This document shows positions 34,727-54,873 of a DNA stretch of 56,349 bases, piece by piece. The notes beneath the pieces were generated by a model, which saw only the letters and a list, made by a program, of their open reading frames with translations, did not search any database and was not told the origin of the DNA. The stretch is from a virus: positions 1 to 56,349 of IMG/VR virus record IMGVR_UViG_3300020477_000031. The stretch is one strand, 5' to 3'. The number at the start of each line of letters is the position of its first letter. The stretch's first letter is position 1. The position numbers and the translations under genes were made by a program.

Positions 34727-37213
34727 ATGAATATAAGTGACAGAGTTTTTGGTTCTGATTTTAGTCCCGAAATTAAAAAAAAATTATTGGCAAGACAGGC
34801 TATAACTGAAAATGCAAAAGCAAATGAATCTATTTTATCTGACATAGGAAAACATAATTTTAATGGTGAAGCTGAACTTTCATCTAGAAAGGTTTGGGCT
34901 CGTATGTGGACAGCTGTTTCTGTCTATCGTGTGGAAAATGCAGGTTCTGAAAATCAAGTAGCTAGTGATCCATTAGAAGTTAAAGTTTATGCCGTTGGTA
35001 ATAACAATTTAAGTGATTATGAACAAAATAATACATCCGCAAATGAATCTATAATGGCGGATTTTTTATCTAATAATGATTATATGAAACCAAACGCTGG
35101 TATAACCAACATATCCTCTGAATTGACTGGGTATCTAGGTACTATAAAGAATACTACAGTTAATTTTAAAGTATTTAACTATTTTGATTATGATAATATA
35201 GTAACTAATTATTTTTTAAAACCTGGTGCTACTGTATTTGTAGATTGGGGATGGGATACATCTTTAGCTTACGATCCTCTGGAAGAATTTAAAAAGAATT
35301 CTTCACTTTCTAATATAGAAGAATTTTTATATGGAAGTCCAACTAATCCTAATGGGTTAGTACAAAAATCTAAAGGTGATTTAGAAGTTGTTTTTGGTTA
35401 TGTAACTAAATATGATGCCAAAGCTAACTCGGATGGTAGTTTTGATTGTACAATAACTATTACTTCTAAAAATTATGCTATAATTGACCATGATCAATCT
35501 GGTTTAGTAAAATTGGATAATCTATTTAAGAATACTATTACAGATTTAGCTTTAAAACGATTGGCTGAAGAAATGGGATTGGCTGAAATATATGATTTGG
35601 ATTGGATAATATCATCAAAAAAAGGTGGTCAGTGGAGAAAAGCTGTTGCAAAGAGTGTAGCTTCTACTGAAACTAAATTATCACATCAAACTACAGGATT
35701 TAAATATCCAGTTATACCAGAAGCTTCTTATAAGAGTGGTATATACTTTCAATATTTAGATGATGATGTTGGTGATAAAAAGAAAAAAATACCAGATTTA
35801 AACAATAATATGTATGTTACTATAAAATTCTTTGAAGATGAATTTATGAATAATACATTGGGTATTAAAATGGACAATTCTGACAATGATGTGGGTTTTA
35901 ATTCTGAAGGCCAATATGTAAAATTCAATGAAAATTTATATAAAAAACAATTATATACGAAAAACAAATCTTCTTTACATTTTTTATATCCTGATAGAGA
36001 TATAGATAAAGTCAAATCTTCTGGTAGTGTTCCAATAAGAGATTTATTTATAAAAGTTAGTTTAATTAATAGTGAATTTTCTATAAATACGGATATAAAG
36101 GTAGCACTTAAAAATATATTAGATAAGATATCAGGTGATTCATTGGATGTGATGAAATTGAAATTAATGTCTATAAATAATGGTAATGGCTTTTCTATTG
36201 TTGATATAAATAACCCACTGATATTATCAGATATAAAAAATAGATATGATTTGGGTGAACGTAAAAAGGAAGCTTCTAAAGAAAAGAATTTTGATGATTT
36301 ATTTATGTTTAAACCATATTCTCCTAATTCTATGGTATCATCAATAGATTTGACATTAACTACACCTAATAGTGGGTTAGCTAATATGATAGCTATTCAA
36401 TCACTGGGTGGTGATAAGAAAACATTTCCAATATCAGAAAATATATTAAATAATCTAGCTTTAAAATCATTAAATATTGATGGTGATATACACTATGAGC
36501 ACTTACCTACTGTTGATAAATCTGAAAATAGGGTAGAAAAACAACAAAAAAATGAAGTCATTATACCATCACAAGTTACGATGGAAATAGAAGGTGAAGA
36601 TAATGATTCTGAAATTTTAAATACTATTGATAAATTTTATCAAGGTGGATCAGCAGAGTCTGTTGATTTTGTAAAAAAACTGAATGAAGATTATAATTAT
36701 GCTGTTAGTGCATCATCTGCTGTTAAAGTATCTAAATCTGAAAAAGATCAATTTTCTGATGAAGTTGCAGATGATACAGTAGTGACTACATCTCCTAGTA
36801 GATATTTTGAACATAAAGTTAGAAAACATATGGTAACTGGTGGTAATTATACACCCATATTACCATATTCCTTATCATTTTCTATATACGGTATATCAGG
36901 TATATCACCTGGTAATTCATTTAGAGTTGATTATTTACCTAAATTACAAAGAGAAAAATCATTTTTTTGTATTACTAAAGTTACACATGATATTAGTACA
37001 TCTACATGGACAACTAAAATAGATGCACAAATGCGAATGAGAAGTGATAAACCTCTTACAGAATCACATATAATAAGTACACCTCCCATTAAATTATCTA
37101 AAAAGGCTTTGAAGGGTATGGGTTATAGTAAAGAACAAATTACTGATATATGGGAAAATAATTTAAATTGGGAAGAAATACCCCCAGATCCTCCAGAAGT
37201 AAAAACTGCATAA
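34727..37213 (+). CDS. Large baseplate hub-region protein (gp27-like, tentative)
   Basis: 828 residues starting 2 nt after the gp53-like stop. The N-terminal half has FLKPGATVFVDWGWDTS, a strand-rich element found in phage hub proteins. The C-terminal part (YSLSFSIYGISGISPGNSFR, FCITKVTHDISTSTWTTKID) has the pattern of hub domains that form the tail-tube-like ring. The central 300 residues are variable and Asn/Asp/Lys-rich. Likely to link spike, wedges and tube; the exact T4 equivalent cannot be decided here. Confidence 0.55.
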   Translation: MNISDRVFGSDFSPEIKKKLLARQAITENAKANESILSDIGKHNFNGEAELSSRKVWARMWTAVSVYRVENAGSENQVASDPLEVKVYAVGNNNLSDYEQNNTSANESIMADFLSNNDYMKPNAGITNISSELTGYLGTIKNTTVNFKVFNYFDYDNIVTNYFLKPGATVFVDWGWDTSLAYDPLEEFKKNSSLSNIEEFLYGSPTNPNGLVQKSKGDLEVVFGYVTKYDAKANSDGSFDCTITITSKNYAIIDHDQSGLVKLDNLFKNTITDLALKRLAEEMGLAEIYDLDWIISSKKGGQWRKAVAKSVASTETKLSHQTTGFKYPVIPEASYKSGIYFQYLDDDVGDKKKKIPDLNNNMYVTIKFFEDEFMNNTLGIKMDNSDNDVGFNSEGQYVKFNENLYKKQLYTKNKSSLHFLYPDRDIDKVKSSGSVPIRDLFIKVSLINSEFSINTDIKVALKNILDKISGDSLDVMKLKLMSINNGNGFSIVDINNPLILSDIKNRYDLGERKKEASKEKNFDDLFMFKPYSPNSMVSSIDLTLTTPNSGLANMIAIQSLGGDKKTFPISENILNNLALKSLNIDGDIHYEHLPTVDKSENRVEKQQKNEVIIPSQVTMEIEGEDNDSEILNTIDKFYQGGSAESVDFVKKLNEDYNYAVSASSAVKVSKSEKDQFSDEVADDTVVTTSPSRYFEHKVRKHMVTGGNYTPILPYSLSFSIYGISGISPGNSFRVDYLPKLQREKSFFCITKVTHDISTSTWTTKIDAQMRMRSDKPLTESHIISTPPIKLSKKALKGMGYSKEQITDIWENNLNWEEIPPDPPEVKTA

Positions 37214-37230
37214 AAACGTTGTTTTGTATT
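37212..37230 (+). promoter_or_regulatory. 19-nt promoter-like repeat, copy 1
   Basis: AAAAACGTTGTTTTGTATT, identical to 53419-53437. It begins in the stop codon of the hub gene and precedes the tRNA locus by 36 nt. TTGTTT (37219-37224) could serve as -35 with TGTAAC (37241-37246) as a weak -10; TATAAT at 37232 is too close to pair with it. A TAACGTA block follows at 37243. Confidence 0.5.
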
Positions 37231-37266
37231 ATATAATATTTGTAACGTAAAGTATGATATGAAACA

Positions 37267-37341
37267 CGAGATGTAGCGAAGTCCGGTTATCGCACTTGCT
37301 TTGGGAGCAAGGGATCGTAGGTTCAAATCCTACCATCTCGA
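37267..37341 (+). tRNA. tRNA-Pro (anticodon UGG)
   Basis: A complete 75-nt cloverleaf. Acceptor CGAGATG/CATCTCG with discriminator A, D-arm GCGA...TCGC, anticodon arm CTTGC-TTTGGGA-GCAAG with TGG at positions 34-36, variable loop GGATC, and T-arm GTAGG-TTCAAAT-CCTAC. CCA is not encoded (CTA follows). CCA is the commonest Pro codon in this window by eye, so the tRNA suits the phage codon bias. Confidence 0.95.
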
Positions 37342-37350
37342 CTACAAATG

Positions 37351-37468
37351 GGGGATGTATTGGTATCGATTGGGCTTGTTTAACACGGAGTGGTGTTAAA
37401 TGACATTAGTTGACTCAATGATATGTCATAATAAGTTCAAGACGGCGGTTCGATTCCGCCCATCTCCA
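37351..37468 (+). ncRNA. 118-nt tmRNA/tRNA-like RNA without a tag reading frame
   Basis: It starts 9 nt after tRNA-Pro. The ends form a 7-bp acceptor GGGGATG/CATCTCC (one G-T pair) with discriminator A, next to a perfect T-arm GGCGG-TTCGATT-CCGCC. The 5' side TTGGTATCGATTGGG (37360-37374) closely matches the D-loop region of bacterial tmRNA. Between them are a CTTG/CAAG closing helix (37375-37378 with 37438-37441), an 8-bp hairpin TTTAACAC/GTGTTAAA (37379-37400) and a second hairpin TGACAT/ATGTCA (37401-37428). There is no anticodon arm and no ALAA-type tag. It may be a reduced tmRNA or a Y-RNA-like tRNA mimic. Confidence 0.7.
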
Positions 37469-37501
37469 CTATTGTTACAAACTGTTACAATTTATTTTAC
37501 G

Positions 37502-37512
37502 AAAAACGTTGT
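37502..37512 (+). promoter_or_regulatory. Partial copy of the promoter-like repeat
   Basis: AAAAACGTTGT, equal to the first 11 nt of the 19-nt repeat, 70 nt before the preferred ATG at 37572. A TAACGTA block follows 27 nt later (37532), at nearly the same spacing as in copy 1 (28 nt). Confidence 0.4.
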
Positions 37513-37571
37513 AAGATCGGCCAGAATGTGTTAACGTATATTGTATGGTTAACGATAAAAGAAAGGCATTT

Positions 37572-39719
37572 ATGAGTTTTAATTCAAGAGATTTTAAGGG
37601 TTTCACTTTTCGTAGTGGCCCAGCTAAAAAGAAAGAAAATAAATCGTTTTCTTCTTTTTGGGATAATTCATCCGACAGTTATGATGTTGATGAATTTTTA
37701 GGTTTAGATAGTGATAAACCTAAAGGTAAAGATTTAGTTGCTTTGGCTGGTTACAAAAGAGCCATTGGTAACTTTGTTAATATTGTTACTGGTGAAAATA
37801 TTCCTGTTACTTTTAATTCAAGAGATGAAAGTTATACTGATGGTAAAAAAGTTGTCATTGGTTCTAACTTGAATGATAAGAATTTTGATGTGGCTGTTGG
37901 TTTAGCACTTCACGAAGGTAGTCATATTAAACTATCTGATTTTAATTTATTAGCTAATTTAGAAATGAATATTCCAGCTGAAATATATGTTTTGGCTGAA
38001 AAAGTTGGTGTTGATAGGATGACTACTGTTAGTACTGTTAAATCTATTCTTAACTATGTTGAAGATAGAAGAATTGATAGTTTTATTTTCAGAACTTCAC
38101 CTGGTTATAAAGGTTATTATCATTCAATGTATAATAAGTACTTTTATTCAAAAAACATTGATAAAGGTTTGTTGTCGGCTGAATTTAGAACCGAAACTAT
38201 TGATTCTTATTTATTCAGAATTATTAATCTTCATAATAAAAATCGTCAATTGGGAGCTCTTAAAGGTTTAAAAAATATTTATGACTCTATTGATTTAAAA
38301 AACATTAAATTCGTAAAAGATACGAATGACGCTTTGAATATAGCTATTGAAGTTATAACTTTAATTCTTTTAAATATCGACCCAATTAAAACTGAAAATG
38401 ATTCACAAAATGAATCACAAAGTCAACCTGGTGGTTCTTCTGATGACAATACAATGTCAGATGAAAAATTTGAAGATTTACTTGATTCTATTGAAAATGG
38501 TAATGGAAGTTCAGATGAATCAGAAAATGGTAATGGAACTTCTGTTCAAATTCCTACTGATAATCCTTCTTCTGGTAATATGTCAAATGATGATGGTTCT
38601 GAACCAGTTGAACTATCAGATAGACAAAAATCTTTATTGAAAAAAGCTTTTGAAAAACAAGAAAAGTTTATGGATGGTGACATCAAAAAAACTATGTTGT
38701 CTAAAAAAGATAAAACTGATGTTTCATCTATTGATGAAAGTAATTCTACTTATGAAACTGTTGGTGGTGGTATTAATACTAGTCATTGGAATTCTAAAGT
38801 TGGTAATGGAACTAAATGTTTGGTTGTTAGAAATCTTACTCAAGGATTGATTGATACAGGTGTTTTCAGATGTGCTACTTCTTGGAATCAATCAAATTAT
38901 AATCGTAATTCTGATTATAGTTATAGTAGAAGAAATTATAATTTTGTTGAAGAAGGTTTAAGACTTGGAACTATGTTGGGTAGAAAACTTCAGGTTAGAG
39001 GTGAAGAATCATCATTGAAATATACAAGAAAAGATACTGGTAGATTGGATAAGAGATTAATTTCTGAATTAGGTTTTGGAAACTCTAATGTCTTTAGTCA
39101 AACTTTCACTGAAAGATATAACAAAGCTTACTTACATATTTCAATTGACGCTTCTGGTTCTATGTGTGGTGATAAATGGAACAAAGCTATGACATCCGCA
39201 GTCGCGATGATTAAAGCTTGTGATATGGCTGGTAACATTGATGTGGTGGTTTCAATTAGAACTACTCACGGTGATGGGAGAAATGATGTTCCAATGATTA
39301 TGGTTGTGTTTGATTCACGAAAAGATAAATTACAAAAAGTTAGAGCTTTGTTTCCAGCATTGGATGTTTCAGGTACTACACCTGAAGGTTTATGTTTTGA
39401 AGCGATTATGAAAGATTTAATTCCTGGTAATTCTAATCAAGATAGTTATTTCATTAATTATTCTGATGGACAACCTTACTACTCTAATTCTGAAATTTAT
39501 TATGGTGGATTTGAAGGTGAAAGACACACCAGAAAAATGGTTAATGATATGAGAAATATGGGATTGAATGTTTTAAGTTATTTCATTGGTGGTGATTATG
39601 AAAGTGAAAGAGATAATAAAGCTTTTACAAATATGTATGGTAAAGATGCTTCATTTATCAACGCTACCAATATGATGCAAGTAGCAAAAACAATGAATGA
39701 AAAATTCTTAGAAAAATAA
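37572..39719 (+). CDS. vWA-domain protein with HExxH-like zinc-site motif
   Basis: Start ATG 37572 (MSFNSRDFKGF) was chosen because GAAAGG lies 6 nt before it; ATG 37545 lacks a ribosome site. 715 residues. The N-terminal domain has LHEGSHIKLSDF (His114, Glu115, His118) and a downstream YVEDRRIDSF that could supply a further ligand, as in minimal metallopeptidase or CobT-like proteins. A Ser/Asn/Asp/Gly-rich linker follows (about 285-350). The C-terminal von Willebrand A domain has a MIDAS motif DASGSM (Asp526, Ser528, Ser530). Role unknown; vWA proteins commonly act with AAA+ ATPases or bind RNA (Ro60). Confidence 0.8.
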   Translation: MSFNSRDFKGFTFRSGPAKKKENKSFSSFWDNSSDSYDVDEFLGLDSDKPKGKDLVALAGYKRAIGNFVNIVTGENIPVTFNSRDESYTDGKKVVIGSNLNDKNFDVAVGLALHEGSHIKLSDFNLLANLEMNIPAEIYVLAEKVGVDRMTTVSTVKSILNYVEDRRIDSFIFRTSPGYKGYYHSMYNKYFYSKNIDKGLLSAEFRTETIDSYLFRIINLHNKNRQLGALKGLKNIYDSIDLKNIKFVKDTNDALNIAIEVITLILLNIDPIKTENDSQNESQSQPGGSSDDNTMSDEKFEDLLDSIENGNGSSDESENGNGTSVQIPTDNPSSGNMSNDDGSEPVELSDRQKSLLKKAFEKQEKFMDGDIKKTMLSKKDKTDVSSIDESNSTYETVGGGINTSHWNSKVGNGTKCLVVRNLTQGLIDTGVFRCATSWNQSNYNRNSDYSYSRRNYNFVEEGLRLGTMLGRKLQVRGEESSLKYTRKDTGRLDKRLISELGFGNSNVFSQTFTERYNKAYLHISIDASGSMCGDKWNKAMTSAVAMIKACDMAGNIDVVVSIRTTHGDGRNDVPMIMVVFDSRKDKLQKVRALFPALDVSGTTPEGLCFEAIMKDLIPGNSNQDSYFINYSDGQPYYSNSEIYYGGFEGERHTRKMVNDMRNMGLNVLSYFIGGDYESERDNKAFTNMYGKDASFINATNMMQVAKTMNEKFLEK

Positions 39720-39729
39720 GGAGATAGTA

Positions 39730-40179
39730 ATGAGTAGAATAATTAATATTATTATTTTGTGTATGTTGGCCATAGGTTGTTCGGATAATATGTCCAATCA
39801 AAATTCAATAGAATATGAATTTACTGTTGAAACTGGATTGCCATTGGATGGAAATGGATATTATCATTTTGTTATGGAAACCTATGGTACATCACAAGCA
39901 TTAACTAAATTTACAGTTCATACAAATAATCCAATAACTCAATTTGTTTATTGGGATTGTGATACTCAATTTGATTATCAATGGCAAAATCAAAATTTTG
40001 ATGTGGATATAATTAATCATTCATCTTATACAAATGATGTTGGTGATGCATTTACTATGTTTGGTCCTCAAATATCCATGGTTGGTGATACAGTTACTAT
40101 ATATGTTGGTTATGTTGATTATGAATATGATATAGAATATAGTGAATATTTTTATGTTATATTAGAAATTGATGAATAA
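39730..40179 (+). CDS. Predicted phage-encoded lipoprotein
   Basis: 149 residues after AAGGAGA. The N-terminus MSRIINIIILCMLAIGCSDN is a short lipoprotein signal with acylated Cys17 predicted; the lipobox (AIGC) is slightly atypical at -3. The mature part is beta-rich and acidic with many Tyr residues and no Lys-rich tail. Exposed lipoproteins made by phages often block superinfection or modify the envelope; that role is inferred only from type. It lies between the vWA protein and the polymerase gene. Confidence 0.65.
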   Translation: MSRIINIIILCMLAIGCSDNMSNQNSIEYEFTVETGLPLDGNGYYHFVMETYGTSQALTKFTVHTNNPITQFVYWDCDTQFDYQWQNQNFDVDIINHSSYTNDVGDAFTMFGPQISMVGDTVTIYVGYVDYEYDIEYSEYFYVILEIDE

Positions 40180-40187
40180 ATAATATA

Positions 40188-41435
40188 TTGTTTGCATTAA
40201 TTCCAATATTTTCGGATCCATTTTTACATCCATATCATCATGATAACGATTTATCTCTATTATATGTACGCCATTATGGTGATAGGGAAGGTAGAATGAT
40301 ATGTATAAATCATCCAGATTGTGGTGATAAGGAATCCATCGATGATATAAAAAACAATAATGTGAATTTTTATCTAACGCCTGATAAGAAAAAACTTATG
40401 AATATATTTCCTGATACAAGATTGATTGATGTGAATATGATGACTTGGTTGAAAACAAATAAACCATTAAATTTTGAAGATATAAGAATAAATGCATACG
40501 ATTTTTTCCACAGTAAATATTATAATGTCAAAAATTTAAATTTAATAATACCATTGGTTAAACATAAAGAATATTGTGATAGAGTCTTTGACAGAATTAC
40601 CGAAAATATACATCAAGTTTATGAAGTGATGTATACAGAAGCTATAGAAGCATTTAGTTCAATAGAAAAAAATGGTATACGAGTAACTAATGATGTATGT
40701 GATATATTTGATGAAAGGGTAAGAAAACATATATCCAATGGTAAGTTATATTCTCAATATAATTTATGGACATCTACAGGAAGACCAAGTAATTCATTCG
40801 GTAGTGTTAATTTCGCTGCATTAAATAAAGAACAGAGAAAGGCATTTATACCTGAAAATGATATGTTGGTTGAATATGATTATGATGCTTATCATTTAAG
40901 ATTGATTGGTGAATTGATTGATTATAAATTTGGTGATGAATCTGTACATAAACATCTTGCAGAATTTTATGGGTGTTCATATGAGGAATCAAAGGCAAAA
41001 ACATTTAAATTATTGTATGGTGGTATTAGTAGTGAAATAAGAAAATCTATACCTTTTTTTGACAAGACACAAAATTTTATGGATAATTTGTGGGAAAAAT
41101 TTAATGGTGCTAATTATATAAAAACTTATATTTATAATAGAAGAATAAAGTTTTCAACAGATTTAACAAAAAATAAGTTATTTAATTATTATATTCAATC
41201 TTTTGAAACTGAGCATAATATAAAAAGAATCGTTGAAATACAAAAAATCTTAAAAGATTATAAATCCAAAATGGTTTTATACGGATATGATTCATTTTTA
41301 ATAGATTTTGATATTTATGATGGGATAGATTTATTGAAATTAATAAAAAGTGAATTACAGGGTGATAATTATATGGTAAAAATTAAATCTGGCAAACAAT
41401 ATAATAAATTGAAAGATATTACACATAAATTATGA
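40188..41435 (+). CDS. Short family A DNA polymerase-like protein without exonuclease domain
   Basis: The only nearby start is TTG 40188 (ATA codons also lie upstream in frame), so the N-terminus is uncertain. 415 residues. The C-terminal half has family A motifs: STGRPSNSFGSVNFAAL, motif A VEYDYDAYHLRLIGEL (catalytic Asp231), motif B KAKTFKLLYGG (Lys269, Tyr277) aligning with KAINFGLIYG of Pol I, and motif C YGYDSFLIDF (Asp368), where the usual His-Asp-Glu reads Tyr-Asp-Ser. No 3'-5' exonuclease motif is seen. T4-type phages replicate with a family B enzyme, so this may be an auxiliary polymerase. Overlaps the next gene. Confidence 0.75.
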   Translation: MFALIPIFSDPFLHPYHHDNDLSLLYVRHYGDREGRMICINHPDCGDKESIDDIKNNNVNFYLTPDKKKLMNIFPDTRLIDVNMMTWLKTNKPLNFEDIRINAYDFFHSKYYNVKNLNLIIPLVKHKEYCDRVFDRITENIHQVYEVMYTEAIEAFSSIEKNGIRVTNDVCDIFDERVRKHISNGKLYSQYNLWTSTGRPSNSFGSVNFAALNKEQRKAFIPENDMLVEYDYDAYHLRLIGELIDYKFGDESVHKHLAEFYGCSYEESKAKTFKLLYGGISSEIRKSIPFFDKTQNFMDNLWEKFNGANYIKTYIYNRRIKFSTDLTKNKLFNYYIQSFETEHNIKRIVEIQKILKDYKSKMVLYGYDSFLIDFDIYDGIDLLKLIKSELQGDNYMVKIKSGKQYNKLKDITHKL

Positions 41436-43318: not shown

Positions 43319-43722
43319 TGAAGACACAATTATTAGCCACATTTACATCTAAAAAATCTATTGATGATACTATTGAATTAATTAAAAAGTATTATGATAT
43401 AGCTTTTGGTAAAATATATGTATTTCAAAATGAAGAAAAAACATCAGATTTTATATGTACATATAATGTTATAATCGGTGAAGGTAAAGAAGTTGATTAT
43501 AATATATTAGAAAATACAATTTCTATTCATAGGAAAAAATATTCTAACACTTTATATACAATCAATGCATTAAATGAAGTTATCAAAAATCTCAATAATG
43601 GTGTGTTGGACACATCTTTTAATATACCATGGGAAAATTTTCAAAATATGTTATTGGTTGTAAATAAAGAAGGTTTGTGTAGGATATCAACACGAATTTT
43701 TAAAATTCATAAATTAAATTAA
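43318..43722 (+). CDS. Conserved-looking small protein, unknown
   Basis: 134 residues starting MKTQLLATFTSKKSIDDTIE. An alpha/beta pattern is visible, with an ICTYNVIIGEGK strand, IHRKKYSNTLYTINALNEVI and a distinctive NNGVLDTSFNIPWENFQNML. No catalytic motif, cysteine pattern or membrane segment. The single-base overlap with the preceding gene implies co-translation. I recognise it as a type common in marine T4-like phages but know no function. Confidence 0.65.
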   Translation: MKTQLLATFTSKKSIDDTIELIKKYYDIAFGKIYVFQNEEKTSDFICTYNVIIGEGKEVDYNILENTISIHRKKYSNTLYTINALNEVIKNLNNGVLDTSFNIPWENFQNMLLVVNKEGLCRISTRIFKIHKLN

Positions 43723-43753
43723 AAAAAAATAAGCGTTTTAGTTTATATATATA

Positions 43754-43768
43754 TATTTATATAAAATG
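43754..43768 (+). promoter_or_regulatory. Late-promoter-like motif
   Basis: TATTTATATAAAATG, 48 nt before ATG 43802, preceded by alternating TA. It matches the recurring element with a longer spacer before ATG. Confidence 0.5.
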
Positions 43769-43801
43769 AAAGTTTTAATCAAATTAAGGAGATTATAGGT
43801 T

Positions 43802-45207: not shown

Positions 45208-45239
45208 TTGACTTATATCACTTTTTTGATATATATTAT
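45208..45239 (+). promoter_or_regulatory. Sigma-70-like promoter upstream of gp32-like gene
   Basis: TTGACT at 45208-45213 and TATATT at 45232-45237 with an 18-nt spacer. Unlike the late motif this resembles a host RNA polymerase promoter, consistent with earlier expression of the replication genes. Confidence 0.5.
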
Positions 45240-45252
45240 AGGAAATGGTTAT

Positions 45253-45310: not shown

Positions 45311-46078
45311 ATGGATATTTCAAAAATAAAAAGTCGACTGAATCAGTTGCAAAAAACAAATTCCAATACTAATAGTTTTTGGAAACCTGCACCAGGTAAA
45401 ACAGTAATCAGAATAGTTCCTTATAAATTTAATAAAGAAAACCCTTTTCAAGAATTGTTCTTTCATTATCAATTAGGTAATAAAACACATTTATCACCTG
45501 CTTCGTTTGGAAGACCAGACCCAGTTGAAGAATTTTCTAATAAATTAAAATCAACAGGTGTAAAAGATGATTGGATTCAAGGTAAAAGACTTGAACCTAA
45601 AATGAGAACTTTTGCTCCAGTTATTATTAGAGGTCAAGAATCTGAAGGTGTTAAATTTTGGGGATTTGGTAAAACAGTTTATCAAGAATTGTTATCAATC
45701 ATAGCTGATCCTGATTATGGTGATATTACAGATCCAATGAATGGTCGTGATATTATGGTTGAAAGACAAACACCAGCGGAAGCAGGTAATCAGTATGGTA
45801 AAACTACAATTCGTGTTAAACCGAATATGACACCGATAACTGAAGATAAGGGTATGTTAGAAAACATATTTGAATCTCAAGTTGATATTACTGAACTCTA
45901 TACCGAACCTTCTTATGATGAATTGAAAGAAGCTCTTCAGAATTATTTAAATCCAAGTGATGAAAATTCTTCCGAAGGTAATTCAGATGATTCTACATCA
46001 TCAAAGAGTGTTACTGAAACATCTACTGAAAAAACAGAAGATGTTGAAGATGCATTTGATAAATTATTTAATGAATAA
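45311..46078 (+). CDS. 32: Single-stranded DNA-binding protein (gp32-like)
   Basis: 255 residues. The N-terminus MDISKIKSRLNQLQKT and the following WKPAPGKTVIRIVPYKFNKE plus PFQELFFHYQLG strand match the start of gp32 of T4-like phages. The core would bind ssDNA at forks and recombination intermediates. A Ser/Glu/Thr-rich linker ends in an acidic tail (TEDVEDAFDKLFNE), the usual protein-interaction tip. Lacks the clear zinc-finger cysteines of T4 gp32. Next gene is uvsX, its functional partner. Confidence 0.85.
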   Translation: MDISKIKSRLNQLQKTNSNTNSFWKPAPGKTVIRIVPYKFNKENPFQELFFHYQLGNKTHLSPASFGRPDPVEEFSNKLKSTGVKDDWIQGKRLEPKMRTFAPVIIRGQESEGVKFWGFGKTVYQELLSIIADPDYGDITDPMNGRDIMVERQTPAEAGNQYGKTTIRVKPNMTPITEDKGMLENIFESQVDITELYTEPSYDELKEALQNYLNPSDENSSEGNSDDSTSSKSVTETSTEKTEDVEDAFDKLFNE

Positions 46079-46097
46079 TTAACTTCAATAAATTGTA

Positions 46098-46173
46098 GTG
46101 AGTGGGATGAAATTACACACAAGAAATTTTGCACTTAAATAACGAATATTCTTAGCATCACTCTCCCGCTCAT
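46098..46173 (+). promoter_or_regulatory. Structured 5' leader upstream of uvsX
   Basis: GTGAGTGGG (46098-46106) can pair with CCCGCTCAT (46165-46173), giving 9 bp with two G-T pairs, and an adjoining GATG/CATC extends the helix across a bulge. The enclosed 58 nt are A+T-rich. The helix ends 22 nt before the uvsX ATG and just before AAGGGGAA. A regulatory leader or transcript-processing structure is possible. Confidence 0.35.
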
Positions 46174-46195
46174 AACATCATAAGGGGAAAATAAC

Positions 46196-47320: not shown

Positions 47321-48377
47321 TAAGGCAGATTTGAATGAAAAATTCATATCATTTCTTGACCAAGTTAAAGATGAAAAACATAAACCAATAGTAAATCTTA
47401 ATGATAGAGTTTTAATCGTGGATGGCCTGAATACTTTTATTCGGGCTTTTTCCGTTAATCCAGCAATTAATGATGATGGATTACATATAGGTGGTTTAAT
47501 CGGGTTTCTTAAATCATTGAGGTATACATGTGATATTTTGAAACCATCGAGATGTATTATAGTATTTGATGGTAAAGATGGTTCTAAAAGGCGTAGAAAA
47601 ATATACCCAGAATATAAAGCCAATCGTAAAGTTAAAAAAAGATTGAATAGGAATGTGGATTGGGGTACAGCACCTGCAGATGAGGAGGAATCAATGAAGT
47701 TACAAATGGGGCGGTTGATTGAATATCTCGAACAACTACCCCTTTCATTGATTTGTATTGACGGTATAGAAGCCGATGACGGAATGGCTTATATTTCACA
47801 ACAACTTTTACCAGAGAGTGATGTTATATTAATGTCTACAGACAAAGACTTCTTACAATTGGTGGATGATAGAGTTAAAGTTTGGTCACCAACAAAAAAG
47901 AAACTTTATAATAAGAAAGCTGTATTTGATGAATATGGTATACATTCCTGTAATGTTTTAACTTACAGAATATTGGATGGTGATAAATCGGATAATATAG
48001 GCGGAATAAAAGGTGCTGGACTTAAAAGCTTGAAAAAATTCTGCCCACATATTTCTCTAGAAGAAAAATTTGATGTTAAGGATTTGTTAAATTTTGTAGA
48101 AAAATCAGATTCTAAAATAAAACTCTTGGAAAATATAAAAAATGGTAGTAAATTAGTGAAAAGGAATTACTTACTAATGCAACTATCTAATGTGAATATA
48201 TCAAATAATACGAAACTTAAAATACAAGGATCTATTGATAGGGATATACCACATTTGGTGAAATATAAGTTTCAAGCTATGTTTTTAAGTGATAAATTAT
48301 CTACACAAATTAAAAATTTTGATGATTGGATAATGGAATTTACAAGACTTGATAAATTTAGAGGATTAAATGGCTGA
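47310..48377 (+). CDS. rnh: 5'-3' nuclease of the FEN/T4 RNase H family
   Basis: 355 residues. Metal-binding acidic residues sit in VLIVDGLNTFIRAF, CIIVFDGKDGSKRRRKIYPEYK, IDGIEADDGMAY and VILMSTDKDFLQLV, followed by the helix-hairpin-helix ILDGDKSDNIGGIKGAGLK. This order is that of flap endonuclease-type enzymes that remove Okazaki primers. In T4 it is called RNase H. The C-terminal 100 residues are Lys-rich. It overlaps uvsX and the helicase gene, forming a compact replication operon. Confidence 0.9.
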   Translation: MSFNKADLNEKFISFLDQVKDEKHKPIVNLNDRVLIVDGLNTFIRAFSVNPAINDDGLHIGGLIGFLKSLRYTCDILKPSRCIIVFDGKDGSKRRRKIYPEYKANRKVKKRLNRNVDWGTAPADEEESMKLQMGRLIEYLEQLPLSLICIDGIEADDGMAYISQQLLPESDVILMSTDKDFLQLVDDRVKVWSPTKKKLYNKKAVFDEYGIHSCNVLTYRILDGDKSDNIGGIKGAGLKSLKKFCPHISLEEKFDVKDLLNFVEKSDSKIKLLENIKNGSKLVKRNYLLMQLSNVNISNNTKLKIQGSIDRDIPHLVKYKFQAMFLSDKLSTQIKNFDDWIMEFTRLDKFRGLNG

Positions 48378-49731
48378 TAGATTACAAGAATTTGGACATA
48401 ATTTTCAGATAAAATCTGTTGTTTGTTTGATGACAAAACCCAACTTCATTGAACAAATTATAGATATATTGGATGAAAGTCATTATGATAATGACAGTTT
48501 AAAATGGATAGTAAAAGAATGTAAACAATATTTTAATGATTATAAAAAACCTATAACACTTGATGTATTTAAAGTTAATATAAATGAAATAGAAAATGAT
48601 GTATTAAAGACTACTGTTGTTGAAACTCTTAAAGAAATATATAGATATATGGAAGCACCAGATTTAGATTTTGTTCAAGATAAGTGTATAGATTTTTTTA
48701 AGAACCAAACATTAAAAAATGCTATTGTTCAATCTGTTGATATATTGGAAACGAAGGGTGATTATGAACAAATAAAGAATATCATTGATAATGCTATGAA
48801 AGCTGGTACGGAAAGAAATATAGGTCATGAATATATAGAAGATATAGAACACAGATATTCTGAAATGGCTCGTAATACTACTGAAACTCCATGGGATGTT
48901 ATTAATGATTTAACACAAGGTGGTTTGGGTGGTGGTGAACTTGGTGTGATCGTGGCACCAGCTGGTATTGGTAAAACTTGGATATTATGTGCTCTTGGTG
49001 CTGGTTCTATGAAAAAGGGAGCTAATGTTGTTCATTATACATTAGAATTAAATGAAGCGTATGTTGGATTGAGATATGATTCTATATTTACAGGTATAGC
49101 CAATCAAAATCTTAAATATCACAAAGATGAAGTTAAGTCGGCTATTGAAAATGTAGATGGTGATTTGGTAGTAAAATATTTCCCAACTAAAACTGCATCT
49201 GTGCATACTTTAGGTGCACATTTACAACAATTGAAAATGTTGGGTAAAGATTTTGATATGGTAGTTGTTGATTACGGTGATATATTGAGAGATACAAGAG
49301 GTGGTTCTGAAGTTAGGCACGCTCTTGGAAACATATATGAAGATTTAAGAGGATTGGCTGGTGAATTTGATGTACCAATATGGACAGCTTCACAAGCTAA
49401 TCGTTCGGCGTTAGATGAAGATGTCATTGAAGCTACGAAAGTTTCTGAATCATATCAAAAAGTGATGACTGCAGATTTTGTAATTTCATTATCGAGAAAA
49501 GTAGAAGATAAGATAAGTAATACTGGTAGATTTCATGTCATTAAGAATAGATTTGGTCCTGATGGATTGACATACCCAGCTAAAGTTAATACCAATAATG
49601 GTACTGTTGAAATATTTGAAAGTACTACTGTGGATGGTAAAGAAACACAAAATAAAATTGATAACAGAGATAATTTAACGAAGAAATTGTTGGCCAGTAA
49701 ATTTGAAGATTTAATGAGTACTGATGGGTAG
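48370..49731 (+). CDS. 41: Replicative DNA helicase (gp41/DnaB-like)
   Basis: 453 residues. The N-terminal 160 residues form the helical collar domain. The C-terminal RecA-like motor has Walker A APAGIGKT (196-203), the H1a-type VVHYTLELNEAYVGLRYDS, Walker B MVVVDYGDIL, and the H3 TASQANRSAL with sensor Gln. The KNRFGPDG segment is the arginine-finger region. It unwinds the fork with a primase that is not in this window. Starts inside the end of the nuclease gene. Confidence 0.92.
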   Translation: MADRLQEFGHNFQIKSVVCLMTKPNFIEQIIDILDESHYDNDSLKWIVKECKQYFNDYKKPITLDVFKVNINEIENDVLKTTVVETLKEIYRYMEAPDLDFVQDKCIDFFKNQTLKNAIVQSVDILETKGDYEQIKNIIDNAMKAGTERNIGHEYIEDIEHRYSEMARNTTETPWDVINDLTQGGLGGGELGVIVAPAGIGKTWILCALGAGSMKKGANVVHYTLELNEAYVGLRYDSIFTGIANQNLKYHKDEVKSAIENVDGDLVVKYFPTKTASVHTLGAHLQQLKMLGKDFDMVVVDYGDILRDTRGGSEVRHALGNIYEDLRGLAGEFDVPIWTASQANRSALDEDVIEATKVSESYQKVMTADFVISLSRKVEDKISNTGRFHVIKNRFGPDGLTYPAKVNTNNGTVEIFESTTVDGKETQNKIDNRDNLTKKLLASKFEDLMSTDG

Positions 49732-49736
49732 GATAT

Positions 49737-49907
49737 ATGTGGTATAAAATAAGAGCAAGAGATATGAGTATGTTTAAACCAGAAGGTAAAGTTTTAGAAT
49801 TTTATTTGGGTGCAGATTCGAAAGAAAAATTAGATGAAATTTTAAAAGAAAAATCTGAAATAACAGATATTGAGTGGATTAAAGAGGAACCAAACGCATT
49901 TGAATAA
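49737..49907 (+). CDS. 56-residue acidic small protein, unknown
   Basis: ATG 49737 to TAA 49905-49907, 5 nt after the helicase stop, preceded by TAGGATAT. The product starts MWYKIRARDMSMF, contains KEKLDEILKEKSEI and ends EEPNAFE. The stop overlaps the TTG of the ASCH gene, so the spacing supports a real coupled gene. It looks like a small beta-alpha-beta unit, perhaps a partial ferredoxin-type fold. No function known. Confidence 0.55.
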   Translation: MWYKIRARDMSMFKPEGKVLEFYLGADSKEKLDEILKEKSEITDIEWIKEEPNAFE

Positions 49908-50250
49908 AATATTACATCTTAATTTATATAGAAAATACTTTGACGAAATAGCCAATGGAACTAAAACTATTGAATATAGAGATAAGACTGACTATTGGAA
50001 AAAAAGAATTGAAAATAGAGAATATGATGTTATAAAATTTAGAAATGGTTATGCTAAGAATGCACCAACAATGCTAGTTGAATATAAAGGTTGGGGTATA
50101 GATGTTTTTACTGGTGACTATGAATTATATTTAGGGAAAGTTTTAGAAGTTAATTACCAAGATGATTATATATTTAATACTGAATTTGGTAATGGTAAAA
50201 CAGTAGAAGAAATGAAAGAAATAGATAGGAAAAATCGTTATGGAAAATGA
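49900..50250 (+). CDS. ASCH-domain protein
   Basis: Start TTG 49900 was chosen because it yields the usual ASCH beginning (KILHLNLYRKYFDEIANGTK) and lies after AGAGGA; an upstream in-frame TTG at 49870 adds unrelated residues. 116 residues. The motif GTKTIEYRDKTDYWKKR and the VIKFRNGYAKNAPTMLVEYK strand fit the ASCH/PUA-like fold, which binds RNA or modified nucleotides. Role in translation or RNA processing is inferred from the family. Confidence 0.8.
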   Translation: MNKILHLNLYRKYFDEIANGTKTIEYRDKTDYWKKRIENREYDVIKFRNGYAKNAPTMLVEYKGWGIDVFTGDYELYLGKVLEVNYQDDYIFNTEFGNGKTVEEMKEIDRKNRYGK

Positions 50251-50329
50251 AATAATAGGTTATATAGAAATACCAGAAGATTATTGGACATATTCACATA
50301 ATGTAGAATATATTGTGGTGGATGATTAG
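50240..50329 (+). CDS. 29-residue small ORF
   Basis: ATG 50240 overlaps the end of the ASCH gene, and TAG 50327-50329 overlaps the next start. The peptide MENEIIGYIEIPEDYWTYSH is acidic and aromatic. Support comes only from perfect packing between neighbours and AGATAGGA upstream. Confidence 0.35.
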   Translation: MENEIIGYIEIPEDYWTYSHNVEYIVVDD

Positions 50330-50897
50330 ATTAGAACAAGTAAATACTGATGGTCAAAAAAAGGTTGTGAAATATTTGATAGAAAATTATCATTCATATG
50401 TACCATCATCAAAATCTGTTGGTAGAAGAATAGATTGGTTGATATATGATGATGATACATTTCCACTTGAAGCTGTTGGTATGATTGGTATAGGTTCTTC
50501 TGTATATCCACCTCCAAAAGCTATGTTAGAATTTATGGGATTATCTAAATCAGAATATAAAGATGTGTTTAACACTGTTTCCAACAATTGGAGATTCTGT
50601 ATGAAGAAATTTATTAAGAATGGTGGAACACAAATATTAAAACAAGTTAGACAATTAGCACCAAAGGCTTGGAAAGAAAAATATGGTGATGATTTAAAAT
50701 ATTTAATTACATTTGTTGGCGGTGGTAATAATGGGGCAGTATATAAAGCTGATAATTGGTTTATGGTTGGTAAAACGGCTGGATTACCAAAACATAAAAT
50801 GGTATCAATGAAATGGAATACAGGTGAAGAACTTAAAGAAAAGTTTGTTAAACCAACAGGTGAAAATAAAAAATTAATATTTATGAAAAGGTTATAA
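50322..50897 (+). CDS. DUF4338/DruA-like protein
   Basis: Start ATG 50322; the upstream TTG 50313 is less likely. 191 residues. The series VSNNWRFCMKKFI, LKQVRQLAPKAWKEKYGDDL and GAVYKADNWFMVGKTAGLPK follows the DUF4338 pattern (NN-RFL, LA--L--W---YG, T-Y-A-NW--VG-T-G) of DruA from Druantia defence systems. An early segment SVYPPPKAMLEFMGL is atypical. It lies directly before a Mom-like gene that shares the YKAxNxxxxG motif, suggesting related folds. A DNA-modification or modification-support role is inferred. Confidence 0.6.
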   Translation: MIRLEQVNTDGQKKVVKYLIENYHSYVPSSKSVGRRIDWLIYDDDTFPLEAVGMIGIGSSVYPPPKAMLEFMGLSKSEYKDVFNTVSNNWRFCMKKFIKNGGTQILKQVRQLAPKAWKEKYGDDLKYLITFVGGGNNGAVYKADNWFMVGKTAGLPKHKMVSMKWNTGEELKEKFVKPTGENKKLIFMKRL

Positions 50898-50898
50898 G

Positions 50899-51528
50899 TT
50901 GAAAGTAAGTGAATTTACAATAGAACCTGTTATTAAGAAGGCAGTTACACCTTTTATTGAAAAATGGCATTATTCACATTATGCTGGTGGTATACAACAT
51001 AAACAATGTTTTGGGTTATATTCACCTGATGGTCCTTTTGGATTACCACGAATGATTGGTGCTATGATATATGGACAACCAGCAATGCCGGATACAGCTA
51101 AAAAATATAATCCAGATGATCCGATGAAATGTTGGGAGTTACGAAGATTATGCTGTATAGATGACACACCTACAAATACAGAAAGTTATTTTATAGGACA
51201 AACATTGAGATGGATAAGACAAAATACAGATATAGAGGTTATTATATCTTATTCTGATTTACATCAGGGGCACGAAGGAACTATTTATAAAGCAAGTAAT
51301 TTTATAAATTTAGGTCAAACATCACCAGCGAAAGTGTTGATGGTTGATGGTAAAGAATATCACCCGAGATCTATGAATAATAAACATAGACCTTATGGAA
51401 GAGAATTAAAAAGAAGATGGGATAATAAAGATGAAAATATATTTTATGTGGATAGGAAACCTAAAAATATTTTTGTTTATTATTTAAATAAAAAAGTTAA
51501 AAAGAAATTATTGAATCAATATTTATAA
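50899..51528 (+). CDS. Mom-like DNA modification acyltransferase-fold protein
   Basis: Start TTG 50899 after AAAAGG; no ATG fits better. 209 residues. HYSHYAGGIQHKQCFGLY, WELRRLCCIDDTPTNTES, the helix YFIGQTLRWIRQNT and VIISYSDLHQGHEGTIYKASNFINLG are the conserved elements of phage Mu Mom-type proteins (GNAT-like fold), which convert adenine to an acetamido derivative and block restriction. The C-terminus is Lys-rich. With the DUF4338-like gene it forms a probable anti-restriction or DNA hypermodification pair. Which modification is made cannot be read from the sequence. Confidence 0.75.
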   Translation: MKVSEFTIEPVIKKAVTPFIEKWHYSHYAGGIQHKQCFGLYSPDGPFGLPRMIGAMIYGQPAMPDTAKKYNPDDPMKCWELRRLCCIDDTPTNTESYFIGQTLRWIRQNTDIEVIISYSDLHQGHEGTIYKASNFINLGQTSPAKVLMVDGKEYHPRSMNNKHRPYGRELKRRWDNKDENIFYVDRKPKNIFVYYLNKKVKKKLLNQYL

Positions 51529-51560
51529 TTGATTCGCCGAAAATATAGGAGTTACAATTA

Positions 51561-53417
51561 ATGGACATTTCAAAACAAATTTTATCAGATATAACAGTTT
51601 ATATGAAATATGCTAGGTATTTACCTAACTTAAAAAGAAGGGAAACATGGGAAGAATTAGTTACTCGTAACAAAAAAATGCATGTGAAAAAGTATCCAGA
51701 ATTAAGGAAAGAAATAAATAAAGCTTATAAATTAGTTTATGATAAAAAAATATTACCATCAATGAGAAGTATGCAATTTGCTGGTAAGTCGGTAGAAATA
51801 TCACCCAACAGAGTTTATAATTGTGCTTATCTTCCAATAGATAATTGGCAATCATTTTCAGAGGTAATGTTTTTATTACTTGGTGGAACTGGAGTTGGTT
51901 ATTCAGTTCAAAAACATCATGTAGAAAAATTACCAGAAATCCACAGACCTAATCCAAAAAGAAAAAGAAGATTTTTAATTGGTGATTCAATTGAAGGTTG
52001 GGCAGATGCTGTAAAGATATTAATGAAATCATTCTTTTATGGTGGTTCACACATCAAATTTGATTTTTCAGATATAAGACCAAAAGGTGCTGAATTAGTT
52101 ACAAGTGGTGGTAAAGCACCTGGACCACAACCACTGAAAGAATGTATTGTAAAAATTCAAGGTATATTAAATCAAAAAGAAAATGGTGATAAATTAACAA
52201 CATTAGAAGTTCATGATATCGTATGTTATATAGCAGATGCTGTGTTGGCTGGTGGTATCAGAAGAGCTGCTTTAATATCATTATTTTCTGCGGATGATGA
52301 TTCTATGATTTCCAGTAAATATGGAAATTGGTGGGAGGAAAACCCACAAAGAGGTAGAGCTAATAACTCTGCTGTACTGGTTCGTTCAAAAGTTACCGAA
52401 GATTTTTTCTTTGATTTGTGGGAAAAGATTAAATCAAGTGGTAGTGGAGAACCAGGAATTTATCTTACCAATGACAAAGATTGGGGAACTAATCCTTGTT
52501 GTGAAATAGCATTAAGGCCATACCAATTCTGTAATCTAACAGAGGTGAATGTATCAAATGTTGAATCCCAAGATGACTTAAATGAAAGAGTTAGAGGTGC
52601 AGCCTTTATAGGAACTCTACAAGCAGGATATACAGAGTTTCATTATTTACGACCGGTATGGCAAAGAACTACTGAAAAGGATGCTTTGATTGGTGTATCT
52701 ATGACAGGTATTGCATCAAACAAAGTATTAGACTTAGATGTGACAAAAGCTGCGAATGAAGTTAAAAAAGAAAACAAAAGAGTTGCTGATATATTGGGTA
52801 TAAAATCAGCAGCTAGATGTACAACTGTAAAACCTGCAGGAACAACATCATTGACTTTAGGAACTTCAAGTGGTATTCATGCCTGGCATAATGATTTTTA
52901 TATCAGAAGAATAAGAGTTGGTAAGAATGAAGCTATATATGACTATTTATTAAAGAATCATCCTGAATTAGTTGAAGATGAATACTTTAGACCACATGAT
53001 ACGGCTGTTATATCTGTTCCACAAAAAGCACCTGAAGGATCTACATTAAGAACTGAATCAGCATTCCAATTATTAGATAGAGTAAAATTCATTAGTGAAA
53101 ATTATGTTAAAAAAGGTCATAGAAGTGGTATGAATACACATAATGTATCTGCTACAATATCAGTACAAGAGAATGAATGGGACGACATAGGTCAATGGAT
53201 GTGGAATAATCAAAAAGCTTATAATGGTTTAAGTATATTACCTTATGATGGTGGAACTTACAAACAAGCACCATTTGAAGATTGTGAAGAAGCTACTTAT
53301 GAAAAGATGATGGAATCTTTAAAACAAGTAGATTTATTTAAAATAATAGAAGAACAAGATGACACTGATTTAAAAGGTGAAGTCGCGTGTTCAGCGAATG
53401 GATGTGAAATAGTTTAA
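51561..53417 (+). CDS. nrdJ: Adenosylcobalamin-dependent class II ribonucleotide reductase
   Basis: 618 residues after TAGGAG. Makes deoxyribonucleotides for phage replication. LPSMRSMQFAG, Cys88 in YNCAYLP and Cys324 in YQFCNLTEVN form the reducible pair; NPCCEIALRP holds the thiyl-radical Cys313 and Glu315. The phosphate-binding TTVKPAGTTSLTLGTSSGIH loop and the C-terminal redox pair CSANGCEIV are present. The absence of a class I small subunit in the window and this fold indicate the monomeric B12 type, which works without oxygen. Confidence 0.93.
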   Translation: MDISKQILSDITVYMKYARYLPNLKRRETWEELVTRNKKMHVKKYPELRKEINKAYKLVYDKKILPSMRSMQFAGKSVEISPNRVYNCAYLPIDNWQSFSEVMFLLLGGTGVGYSVQKHHVEKLPEIHRPNPKRKRRFLIGDSIEGWADAVKILMKSFFYGGSHIKFDFSDIRPKGAELVTSGGKAPGPQPLKECIVKIQGILNQKENGDKLTTLEVHDIVCYIADAVLAGGIRRAALISLFSADDDSMISSKYGNWWEENPQRGRANNSAVLVRSKVTEDFFFDLWEKIKSSGSGEPGIYLTNDKDWGTNPCCEIALRPYQFCNLTEVNVSNVESQDDLNERVRGAAFIGTLQAGYTEFHYLRPVWQRTTEKDALIGVSMTGIASNKVLDLDVTKAANEVKKENKRVADILGIKSAARCTTVKPAGTTSLTLGTSSGIHAWHNDFYIRRIRVGKNEAIYDYLLKNHPELVEDEYFRPHDTAVISVPQKAPEGSTLRTESAFQLLDRVKFISENYVKKGHRSGMNTHNVSATISVQENEWDDIGQWMWNNQKAYNGLSILPYDGGTYKQAPFEDCEEATYEKMMESLKQVDLFKIIEEQDDTDLKGEVACSANGCEIV

Positions 53418-53418
53418 A

Positions 53419-53455
53419 AAAAACGTTGTTTTGTATTGTCGATCAGTAATATATT
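53419..53455 (+). promoter_or_regulatory. 19-nt promoter-like repeat, copy 2, with -10
   Basis: AAAAACGTTGTTTTGTATT at 53419-53437, identical to copy 1. Here TTGTTT (53426-53431) is followed after 18 nt by TATATT (53450-53455), a credible promoter, 39 nt before the ATG at 53494. Confidence 0.55.
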
Positions 53456-53493
53456 TAAGTACTAAATTAAATTATAAATTTTAAAAGGTTAAT

Positions 53494-54873
53494 ATGTCAT
53501 ACACAACTAACGGAGCATTACAACACGAATCATCAGGAAACAAATGTTTAGATTTATTTTCTGTAATTGGTAATTTACGGGAGTGTAGTCGTACAGATGT
53601 ATTGGAACGATTTGAACAAGCATTTAATGAAAATCCAAAATTAGCTACACAGGTAGCATATTGGGCAAGAGCCGCACGACAAGGTTCAGGTGAGCGTAAA
53701 ACGTTTTATACGATTTTGGATGAGTTAGCAAAGACATCACCTGAGTTCGTTGCTAACAACGCTAATACTTTGGCATCATTAGGATATTATAAAGACCTAT
53801 TGAGGTACTTTAACATTGATGGTGTTGTGACTGCTTTTGCCCAAGCAATTAAATCAAAACATAGATTAGCTTGTAAGTGGGCACCTCGTAAGGGTGAGAA
53901 CGCTCGTAAGTTAAGAGATGAGTTAGGTTTCACTAATAAACAATATCGTAAATGGATTGGTGAACATTCAGAAACCGTTGAGGATTTGATGAGTAGCAAA
54001 CTGTTCAGTAGTGTAAACTATTCATCTGTTCCTGGTGGAGCTATGAGGAAATACAAAGATGCCTTTATGAAAAGAGATTTGGCTAGATTTGATGAATGGA
54101 AGAATGATAAAAACACAACAGCTGCTGTATCAGCCACATATCCTCATCAAGTTATAGAGGTAGCTGCTGGTGATGAAGCATTAGCAGATAAGATGTGGAA
54201 CAATTTAGAAGATTTTATAGTTGAAGGTGAGAACATTTTACCAATGATTGATACAAGTGGTAGTATGATAGGAATGCCTTTACAAGTAGCAATATCACTT
54301 GGTATGTATTTGGCTGAAAAAAACAAATCAGAATTTAAAGATACATTTTTAACATTTAGTGAAAGTCCAGAATTGGTTAGATTAGAAGGTCATGGTGTTG
54401 CTGATAGAATGAGAAACATTGGACAAGCTAATTGGGGAATGAATACAGATTTCACAAAGGCTTATGATTTGATATTACAAAGTGCTGTAACTTATAATGT
54501 AGATAAGAGTTCAATGCCAACTATGTTATTAGTATTATCAGATATGCAGTTTGATGATTCACAAGATGGTTGGAATAGTAATGTACCAAAAGTTCACTTT
54601 GATGACATTAAAGCTAAATTCAATAAGAGTGGTTATGAGATGCCAAAGTTAGTTTTCTGGAATCTTAATAGTTATAGTGGGAACCAATCTACAATGAATG
54701 AAGATGGAGTTTGTATGGTTTCAGGGTTTTCACCATCTATAATGAAAGCAATATTAAGTTGTGAAGATTTCAATCCAATGAATGTCATGATGGAAGCTCT
54801 TGAACCAATAGAGTTAGATTATACAAATTTAAAAGAAAAATTAGATATTGATTATCAACAGGAGGTATTATGA
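53494..54873 (+). CDS. TROVE/DUF2828-like protein with C-terminal vWA domain
   Basis: 459 residues. N-terminal HEAT-type helices: TTNGALQHESSGNKCLDLFS, AYWARAARQGSGERKTFYTI, NTLASLGYYKDLLRYFN and KLRDELGFTNKQYRKWIGEH follow the pattern of TROVE/DUF2828 proteins, whose helical ring binds RNA in Ro60. The C-terminal vWA has MIDAS DTSGSM (Asp253, Ser255, Ser257). It would bind structured or misfolded RNA, possibly with a Y-RNA partner (inference). It shares an upstream 19-nt motif with the tRNA/tRNA-like RNA locus. Stop overlaps the next small gene. Confidence 0.78.
   Translation: MSYTTNGALQHESSGNKCLDLFSVIGNLRECSRTDVLERFEQAFNENPKLATQVAYWARAARQGSGERKTFYTILDELAKTSPEFVANNANTLASLGYYKDLLRYFNIDGVVTAFAQAIKSKHRLACKWAPRKGENARKLRDELGFTNKQYRKWIGEHSETVEDLMSSKLFSSVNYSSVPGGAMRKYKDAFMKRDLARFDEWKNDKNTTAAVSATYPHQVIEVAAGDEALADKMWNNLEDFIVEGENILPMIDTSGSMIGMPLQVAISLGMYLAEKNKSEFKDTFLTFSESPELVRLEGHGVADRMRNIGQANWGMNTDFTKAYDLILQSAVTYNVDKSSMPTMLLVLSDMQFDDSQDGWNSNVPKVHFDDIKAKFNKSGYEMPKLVFWNLNSYSGNQSTMNEDGVCMVSGFSPSIMKAILSCEDFNPMNVMMEALEPIELDYTNLKEKLDIDYQQEVL

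Follow-up and report, generated by a model that had tools for sequence, protein, structure and literature searches.

We find that a short RNA encoded at positions 37351-37468 of the IMG/VR virus record IMGVR_UViG_3300020477_000031 is a transfer-messenger RNA (tmRNA) reduced to its tRNA-like domain (TLD) and a branched P2 arm, with the tag-coding part lost. tmRNA is the bacterial RNA that rescues stalled ribosomes. The reduced molecule, here called a mini-tmRNA, belongs to a class widely found in viruses, and we propose that it probably works as a decoy of host trans-translation. The window is the whole stretch of DNA that was analysed, 56,349 nucleotides. The parts of the RNA and the tRNA gene next to it are as follows.

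37351 to 37468 (+): tag-less (TLD-only) tmRNA, 118 nt up to the discriminator A73; an encoded CTA then follows, to 37471 (RF00023 and model R1)
37351 to 37357 (+): 5′ strand of P1 (acceptor), GGGGATG, 7 bp with 37461-37467 (sequence and fold)
37361 to 37369 (+): D-loop analogue TGGTATCGA, holding U17, C18 and G19 of the SmpB-binding surface (Rfam alignment; SmpB contacts from PMC8363625)
37370 to 37379 (+): 5′ strand of P2, 10 bp with 37431-37440 (minimum-free-energy fold, z -2.6; P2 covariation in relatives)
37380 to 37429 (+): two short hairpins capping P2, in place of the entire mRNA-like domain and pseudoknots (fold and reading frames)
37441 to 37443 (+): GAC linker, its A the counterpart of A334, part of the SmpB Trp122 pocket (alignment count; PMC8363625)
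37444 to 37460 (+): T arm, 5 bp, loop TTCGATT (Rfam alignment)
37267 to 37342 (+): tRNA-Pro (TGG), 8 nt 5′ of the mini-tmRNA (ARAGORN; Rfam 69.6 bits)

The Rfam tmRNA family, RF00023, matched 37351-37471 end to end with 62.7 bits (E 2.3e-24; gathering cut-off 47). The alignment spans model positions 1-374 of 374, and about 290 internal positions, corresponding to the mRNA-like part, are deleted. The tRNA-like domain is present with P1, the D-loop analogue, the T arm and A73, while the mRNA-like domain with its tag frame and pseudoknots is absent. P1 contains a wobble pair between G3 (37353) and U70 (37465), the feature by which alanyl-tRNA synthetase (AlaRS) recognises tmRNA (PMC8363625). We found no plausible tag frame in the RNA: the sole GGC-to-stop frame (GLFNTEWC, then a stop) sits in paired bases and is unlike the tags of relatives. 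ARAGORN called no tmRNA at this locus of the window. A phage-encoded TLD with P2 and without the mRNA-like domain is what characterises a TLD-only phage tmRNA, and the window RNA shows all of these features. The sequence-only reading of this DNA had noticed a tRNA-Pro and a tRNA-like RNA of about 118 nt here; both exist, and the RNA is a tRNA mimic. Its further suggestion of a YrlA-type Y RNA did not hold, as cmscan up to E 10 returned no Y RNA family. The permuted two-piece tmRNA family (RF04321) was also considered and gave only sub-threshold matches (31 and 19.7 bits against a cut-off of 47), one of which joins the complete tRNA-Pro to the mini-tmRNA. Exact fragments of the window RNA had no match in IMG/VR, the pattern being too specific, and in a blastn search of the RNA locus against cultured phages the matches listed were to tRNA-Pro.

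We scanned viral contigs for places where the signatures of the two tmRNA ends, 5′ and 3′, lie a short distance apart. With a spacing of 31-61, at least 120 viral contigs carried RNAs of 73-85 nt, a lower bound on the abundance of these compact forms. A spacing of 62-123 gave five more RNAs (103-136 nt), and a relaxed pattern gave seven further loci. Applied to 84,980 bacterial and archaeal genomes, the scan for compact forms returned two matches, both on contigs of metagenome-assembled genomes. The tag-less tmRNA class is thus common in viruses and almost absent from cellular genomes. At least 122 loci, including these two, yielded 90 distinct compact sequences, all with 7/7 P1 pairs; P2 pairing was 7/7 in 66, 6/7 in 18 and 5/7 in 6 of them. 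The Rfam cut-off was exceeded in 36 of the 39 mini-tmRNA records searched.

A second, full tmRNA was found in none of 39 mini-tmRNA records searched, and an SmpB gene in none of 46; viral contigs are often fragments, so that either absence is weak evidence for any single record. Because the 46 records lack SmpB, the mini-tmRNAs would need the SmpB of the host. They are often located in phage tRNA arrays and share no common partner gene, their neighbours being varied (exonuclease, ribonucleotide reductase, DNA polymerase A, terminase, HNH, NlpC/P60). Single-linkage clustering of the loci by common open reading frames lumps 97 loci and gives no firm count of lineages. The class also occurs in cultured Streptomyces phages, namely LuckySocke (OR725497.1, 17977-18057), GiJojo (PP725410.1, 17025-17105) and Shaeky (MT701595.1, 42932-43013). 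These copies lie in tRNA regions and are not annotated as such; the GiJojo copy lies under a hypothetical coding sequence (CDS). ARAGORN overlooked the mini-tmRNAs at every locus scanned, and phage annotations may therefore systematically lack such RNAs.

Several mid-size mini-tmRNAs (L182 6550-6655 on the minus strand, L183 1120-1223, L185 3371-3475 and, in part, L025) have an internal ACGAAA(A/G)GCCCAA...ACGAA motif with a short frame ending in PK and a stop, which could be either a structural element or a micro-tag. In another viral contig, a Pistol ribozyme (L026 10932-11017, minus strand; 39.5 bits, above the cut-off) lies about 10 kb from a mini-tmRNA.

The mini-tmRNAs are under strong structural selection. 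P2 lies outside the search pattern and covaries throughout the family. In a comparison of 61 compact sequences, the share of paired cells is 97.8%, while shuffles give 67.6% and sliding gives no more than 51%; the covariation score is 0.785 against 0.175 in shuffles. Model R1 was built from 61 compact mini-tmRNAs with the window RNA left out. With this model the window RNA scores 61.8 bits (E 1e-11), while no tRNA exceeds 33 bits and no full tmRNA exceeds 24. L027 and L151 represent the same locus in close relatives, their flanks being 97-98% identical. Between the two RNAs, 24 nt are inserted in the apical hairpin and one P1 pair shows a compensatory change, so that the interior of the mini-tmRNA is not a conserved message.

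Selection is also seen at positions of known function. With no base prescribed at position 70, the scan gave the same 120 stretches among the matches listed, with no new locus and U70 in all. The relaxed mid-size set ends in CTCCA throughout, and position 70 is T in all 15 RNAs examined. In structures of tmRNA with SmpB and the ribosome, A15, U17 and A334 form the pocket that holds SmpB Trp122; G19 is needed as well (PMC8363625). Counting along E. coli tmRNA, we assign A334 to the A of the GAC linker. This position lies outside the search pattern, and it is A in 88 of the 90 compact sequences and in all 15 others examined, the window RNA included. As a control, the same position in the tRNAs of these loci is A in only 35 of 185. 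The window RNA has both U17 and G19, which the search pattern imposes in the other mini-tmRNAs.

We found relatives of the window by searches with two of its proteins, the vWA protein encoded from 37572 and the DUF2828 protein encoded from 53494. Five relatives (G002, G048, G050, G052 and G053) carry full tmRNAs of 320-342 nt, at a genomic place other than that of the window mini-tmRNA. Two others, G001 (97 kb) and G049 (169 kb), have neither a full nor a mini tmRNA. ARAGORN reads the tags GNYNTYNVAYA and GNTYNFAYA in the full tmRNAs of the relatives, and the tag of L161, read by eye from the sequence, is GNYTNYNVAYA. The tags of L006, L161 and L163 end in -AYA and not in the usual -LAA, and the tagged products may not go to ClpXP. 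These full-length tmRNAs, like those of phage Melnitz (PMC9004378) and of Stenotrophomonas and Streptomyces phages, are phage-encoded and have the same tRNA-like domain as the window RNA. Unlike it, they possess the mRNA-like domain, pseudoknots and a tag frame.

Closer counterparts have been described. The TLD-only tmRNA of mycobacteriophage DS6A (tmRNA Website 11587) is described as phage-encoded, barely more than a tRNA-like domain and without a tag frame. Among phages, Hudson et al. 2014 (PMC4131195) and Nawrocki et al. 2025 (PMC11915505) name DS6A alone as having a TLD-only tmRNA. DS6A is a singleton actinobacteriophage, whereas the window RNA has 118 nt and a branched P2 arm and belongs to a T4-like phage; the likeness is drawn from the published description only. 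The tmRNAs of jakobid mitochondria and Mallomonadaceae plastids also lack the tag CDS (PMC11915505). They are organellar and reductive and are paired with SmpB imported into the organelle, unlike the viral RNAs.

How might a phage use such an RNA? We consider it probable that the phage-encoded mini-tmRNA is an alanine-chargeable, dominant-negative decoy that blocks host trans-translation. The direct support consists of the homology to tmRNA, the loss of the mRNA-like domain, the structural selection, the alanine identity pair, the SmpB-pocket adenine and the near-restriction to viruses. From these we infer expression, charging, SmpB binding, inhibition and a benefit to the phage. The mini-tmRNA would be transcribed together with tRNA-Pro and processed in the manner of a tRNA. 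Host AlaRS would charge it with alanine via G3·U70. Host SmpB and EF-Tu would then bind the charged RNA and bring it to stalled ribosomes in place of the host tmRNA. Because it has no reading frame, it could not offer a resume codon, and it would act in a dominant-negative manner through SmpB titration, a block of the ribosome or a combination of the two. Ribosome binding has been described for a TLD fragment together with SmpB and EF-Tu (PMC8363625). PMC4131195 and PMC11915505, citing Mao et al. 2009, report strong inhibition of tmRNA in E. coli by the TLD-only RNA of DS6A or one like it, both with and without charging, perhaps through SmpB titration. The phage might gain in that its own proteins escape tagging while mRNAs are being cut in the infected cell, or in that host recovery is disabled; both are candidates.

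Some observations weigh against this proposal. The reported inhibition is independent of charging, so that the invariant G3·U70 points beyond SmpB titration. The uncultured phage LR756508.1 has a full tmRNA (92434-92880) besides a 109-nt mini-tmRNA (414804-414912), which is odd if the mini-tmRNA simply shuts trans-translation down; this genome would be useful for asking whether the two act at different times. The search pattern fixes G3, G4-C69 and much of the D-loop and T-loop, and conservation there is no evidence. That G3·U70 is invariant may mean that phages do profit from charging, which would favour an action on the ribosome. We also put forward, tentatively and at somewhat less than even chance, a broader version: tag-less chargeable tmRNAs would be a widespread class of viral counter-measures, kept in many phage lineages, in which alanyl-TLD·SmpB enters stalled host ribosomes and either traps them or releases the untagged chain. 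Infecting phages would in this way turn off trans-translation or divert it, charging being the selected function and not mere SmpB titration.

Trans-translation is a pathway pursued as an antibiotic target. The class, which stands unannotated even in cultured Streptomyces phages, would supply a natural family of RNA inhibitors of this pathway and would make it possible to ask directly if phages disable ribosome rescue, and for what reason.

Other readings of the RNA must be set against the decoy. In one, alanyl-TLD and SmpB would free the stalled ribosomes occupied by the phage and leave the product unmarked, a release factor or an ArfB-type enzyme finishing the task. The invariant G3·U70, implying that charging matters, suits it, and so do the jakobid mitochondria, which keep a CDS-less tmRNA with imported SmpB and where such rescue is supposed (PMC11915505). 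However, there is no known way to finish without a resume codon, and the one phage-type TLD RNA that has been tested inhibits tmRNA; we regard this reading as unlikely. We doubt even more that the RNA is a decoy for a target other than SmpB. As a mimic of alanine tRNA lacking the anticodon arm, it would then sequester AlaRS, EF-Tu or a defence enzyme directed at tRNAs. The intact acceptor and T arm and the frequent location in tRNA arrays would fit, but a generic tRNA decoy has no need of the conserved tmRNA-type D loop, P2 and GAC linker adenine, which are features of tmRNA and SmpB. The full tmRNAs of the five relatives could also suggest that the RNA is a decayed remnant under no selection. 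This is improbable, given that every helix of the window RNA is intact, that covariation in the family is massive and that the relatives' copies stand elsewhere in the genome. Hardly any credence, the least among these readings, goes to the RNA being a very short but complete tmRNA. Tags of 2 amino acids are known in some bacteria (PMC11915505), and the motif of L182, L183 and L185 comes with a short frame; yet the interior of the window RNA is paired, its sole frame differs from the relatives' tags, and ARAGORN calls no tmRNA there.

The sequence-only reading had offered a quite different explanation, in which the RNA is a YrlA-like ligand of a Ro60-like protein and a second vWA protein is the partner in one ribonucleoprotein. 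The two genes are the following.

53494 to 54873 (+): DUF2828/DUF7788 protein, phrog_850 'RNA-binding protein', Ro60-like fold (Pfam DUF2828 E 6e-27, DUF7788 E 6e-46)
37572 to 39719 (+): vWA protein (C-terminal, MIDAS, DASGSM) with an LHEGSH motif; the frame is open from 37545

The likeness of the 53494 product to TROVE/Ro60 proteins was borne out at the level of predicted fold. Pfam matched only DUF2828 and DUF7788 in it and not the TROVE domain. Its AlphaFold model, of moderate confidence (pLDDT 65), gave top PDB matches in Foldseek that were all Ro60/Rsr (E 1.9e-6 to 8.8e-4), the best being Ro60 of Thermus phage phiLo (9l5y, E 1.9e-6), Deinococcus Rsr and vertebrate Ro60. The model thus appears to have the HEAT-like ring and vWA domain of the Ro60/TROVE fold. 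TROVE proteins have already been noted in jumbo phages (PMC7824862). The second gene, of vWA type, is also present. It likely starts at the ATG at 37572, because relatives begin with MSFNS there, and its predicted structure has low confidence (pLDDT 54) and shows only the C-terminal vWA domain.

The link between these proteins and the RNA did not survive. Bacterial Ro60/Rsr with its Y RNA resembles the present case in that the window genome encodes a Ro60-like protein and that Y RNAs contain a tRNA-like part; it differs in that the window RNA matches tmRNA and does not co-occur with the protein. DUF2828 was found in 680 phage records, yet in none of 44 records that carry a mini-tmRNA. The DUF2828 protein is 83% identical in G001, whose contig has no tmRNA of either kind. 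We found no evidence that ties the 37572 protein to the RNA, and relatives keep this gene without a mini-tmRNA. The promoter motif common to both loci and the Ro60-like fold speak for such a particle, but the motif is half of a general promoter. Two of the three outcomes that the sequence-only reading had named as counting against it were therefore observed: relatives with DUF2828 and without the RNA, and a motif that is a general promoter. We regard a Ro60/Y-RNA-like particle as very improbable.

The elements that flank these loci are listed below.

37212 to 37230 (+): 19-nt motif AAAAACGTTGTTTTGTATT, 5′ of the tRNA-Pro/mini-tmRNA unit; promoter-like -35 half (exact search, layout as in the relative L002)
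53419 to 53455 (+): second AAAAACGTTGTTTTGTATT copy (53419-53437), which with TATATT at 18-nt spacing (53426-53455) makes a complete promoter-like site
37502 to 37512 (+): 11-nt partial motif (first 11 nt of AAAAACGTTGTTTTGTATT), where relatives have the -35 box of the vWA gene promoter
37472 to 37498 (+): TTGTTACAAACTGTTACAATTTATTTT element, outside the RNA; common to the region upstream of the vWA gene in L154-L156 and found also elsewhere in G001 (L015-L017)
6699, 7745, 9938, 15387, 16186 and 16751 of L002: copies of the fuller promoter TTGACTNNTATTATAAAAANGTTGTATATT

Exact search confirmed that AAAAACGTTGTTTTGTATT occurs only twice, before the tRNA-Pro/RNA locus and before the DUF2828 gene, and that its first 11 nt precede the vWA gene. 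Allowing up to 3 mismatches adds one further place (0.13 expected by chance). Repeated 19-mers are not unusual, and the window holds several others; these lie mostly within genes, and both AAAAACGTTGTTTTGTATT copies are intergenic. The motif makes up the upstream half of a promoter with the layout TTG...N18...TATATT. This promoter stands at six or more places in L002, where the six copies of TTGACTNNTATTATAAAAANGTTGTATATT within 21 kb (0 expected) precede different genes, the DUF2828 gene of L002 directly among them. A site of the same layout stands in the window at 45208, 5′ of the gp32-like gene at 45311. The notion of a shared promoter motif thus stands in so far as the motif is promoter-like; it fails as a mark specific to a ribonucleoprotein. 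The copy at 37212 is not followed by TATATT at 18-nt spacing, and for this reason its promoter activity is only presumed. tRNA-Pro and the mini-tmRNA are probably on one transcript. The region at 37472-37498 has the form TTGTTACA-N3-TGTTACAATTTAATT, an element repeated in this phage group, in G001 (L015-L017) and before the vWA gene in L154-L156; it is probably a regulatory site.

The window is T4-like, with portal, terminase, sheath and major head protein (PHROGs) and gp32 and DnaB-like proteins (Pfam). By capsid, the cultured phages closest to it are immuto of Flavobacterium (51%) and Mel-JY01 of Microcystis (50%), and the nearest overall is the uncultured LR756508.1 (484 kb, 53%); from these we guess at a Bacteroidota host. 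PADLOC on seven window proteins gave weak HNH and DruA matches only. Single window proteins match Volactin (actin-like), Mom, DruA, ASCH and ribosomal protein bS21 in Pfam. A phage bS21 beside a tmRNA decoy would amount to two translation-directed factors in one genome.

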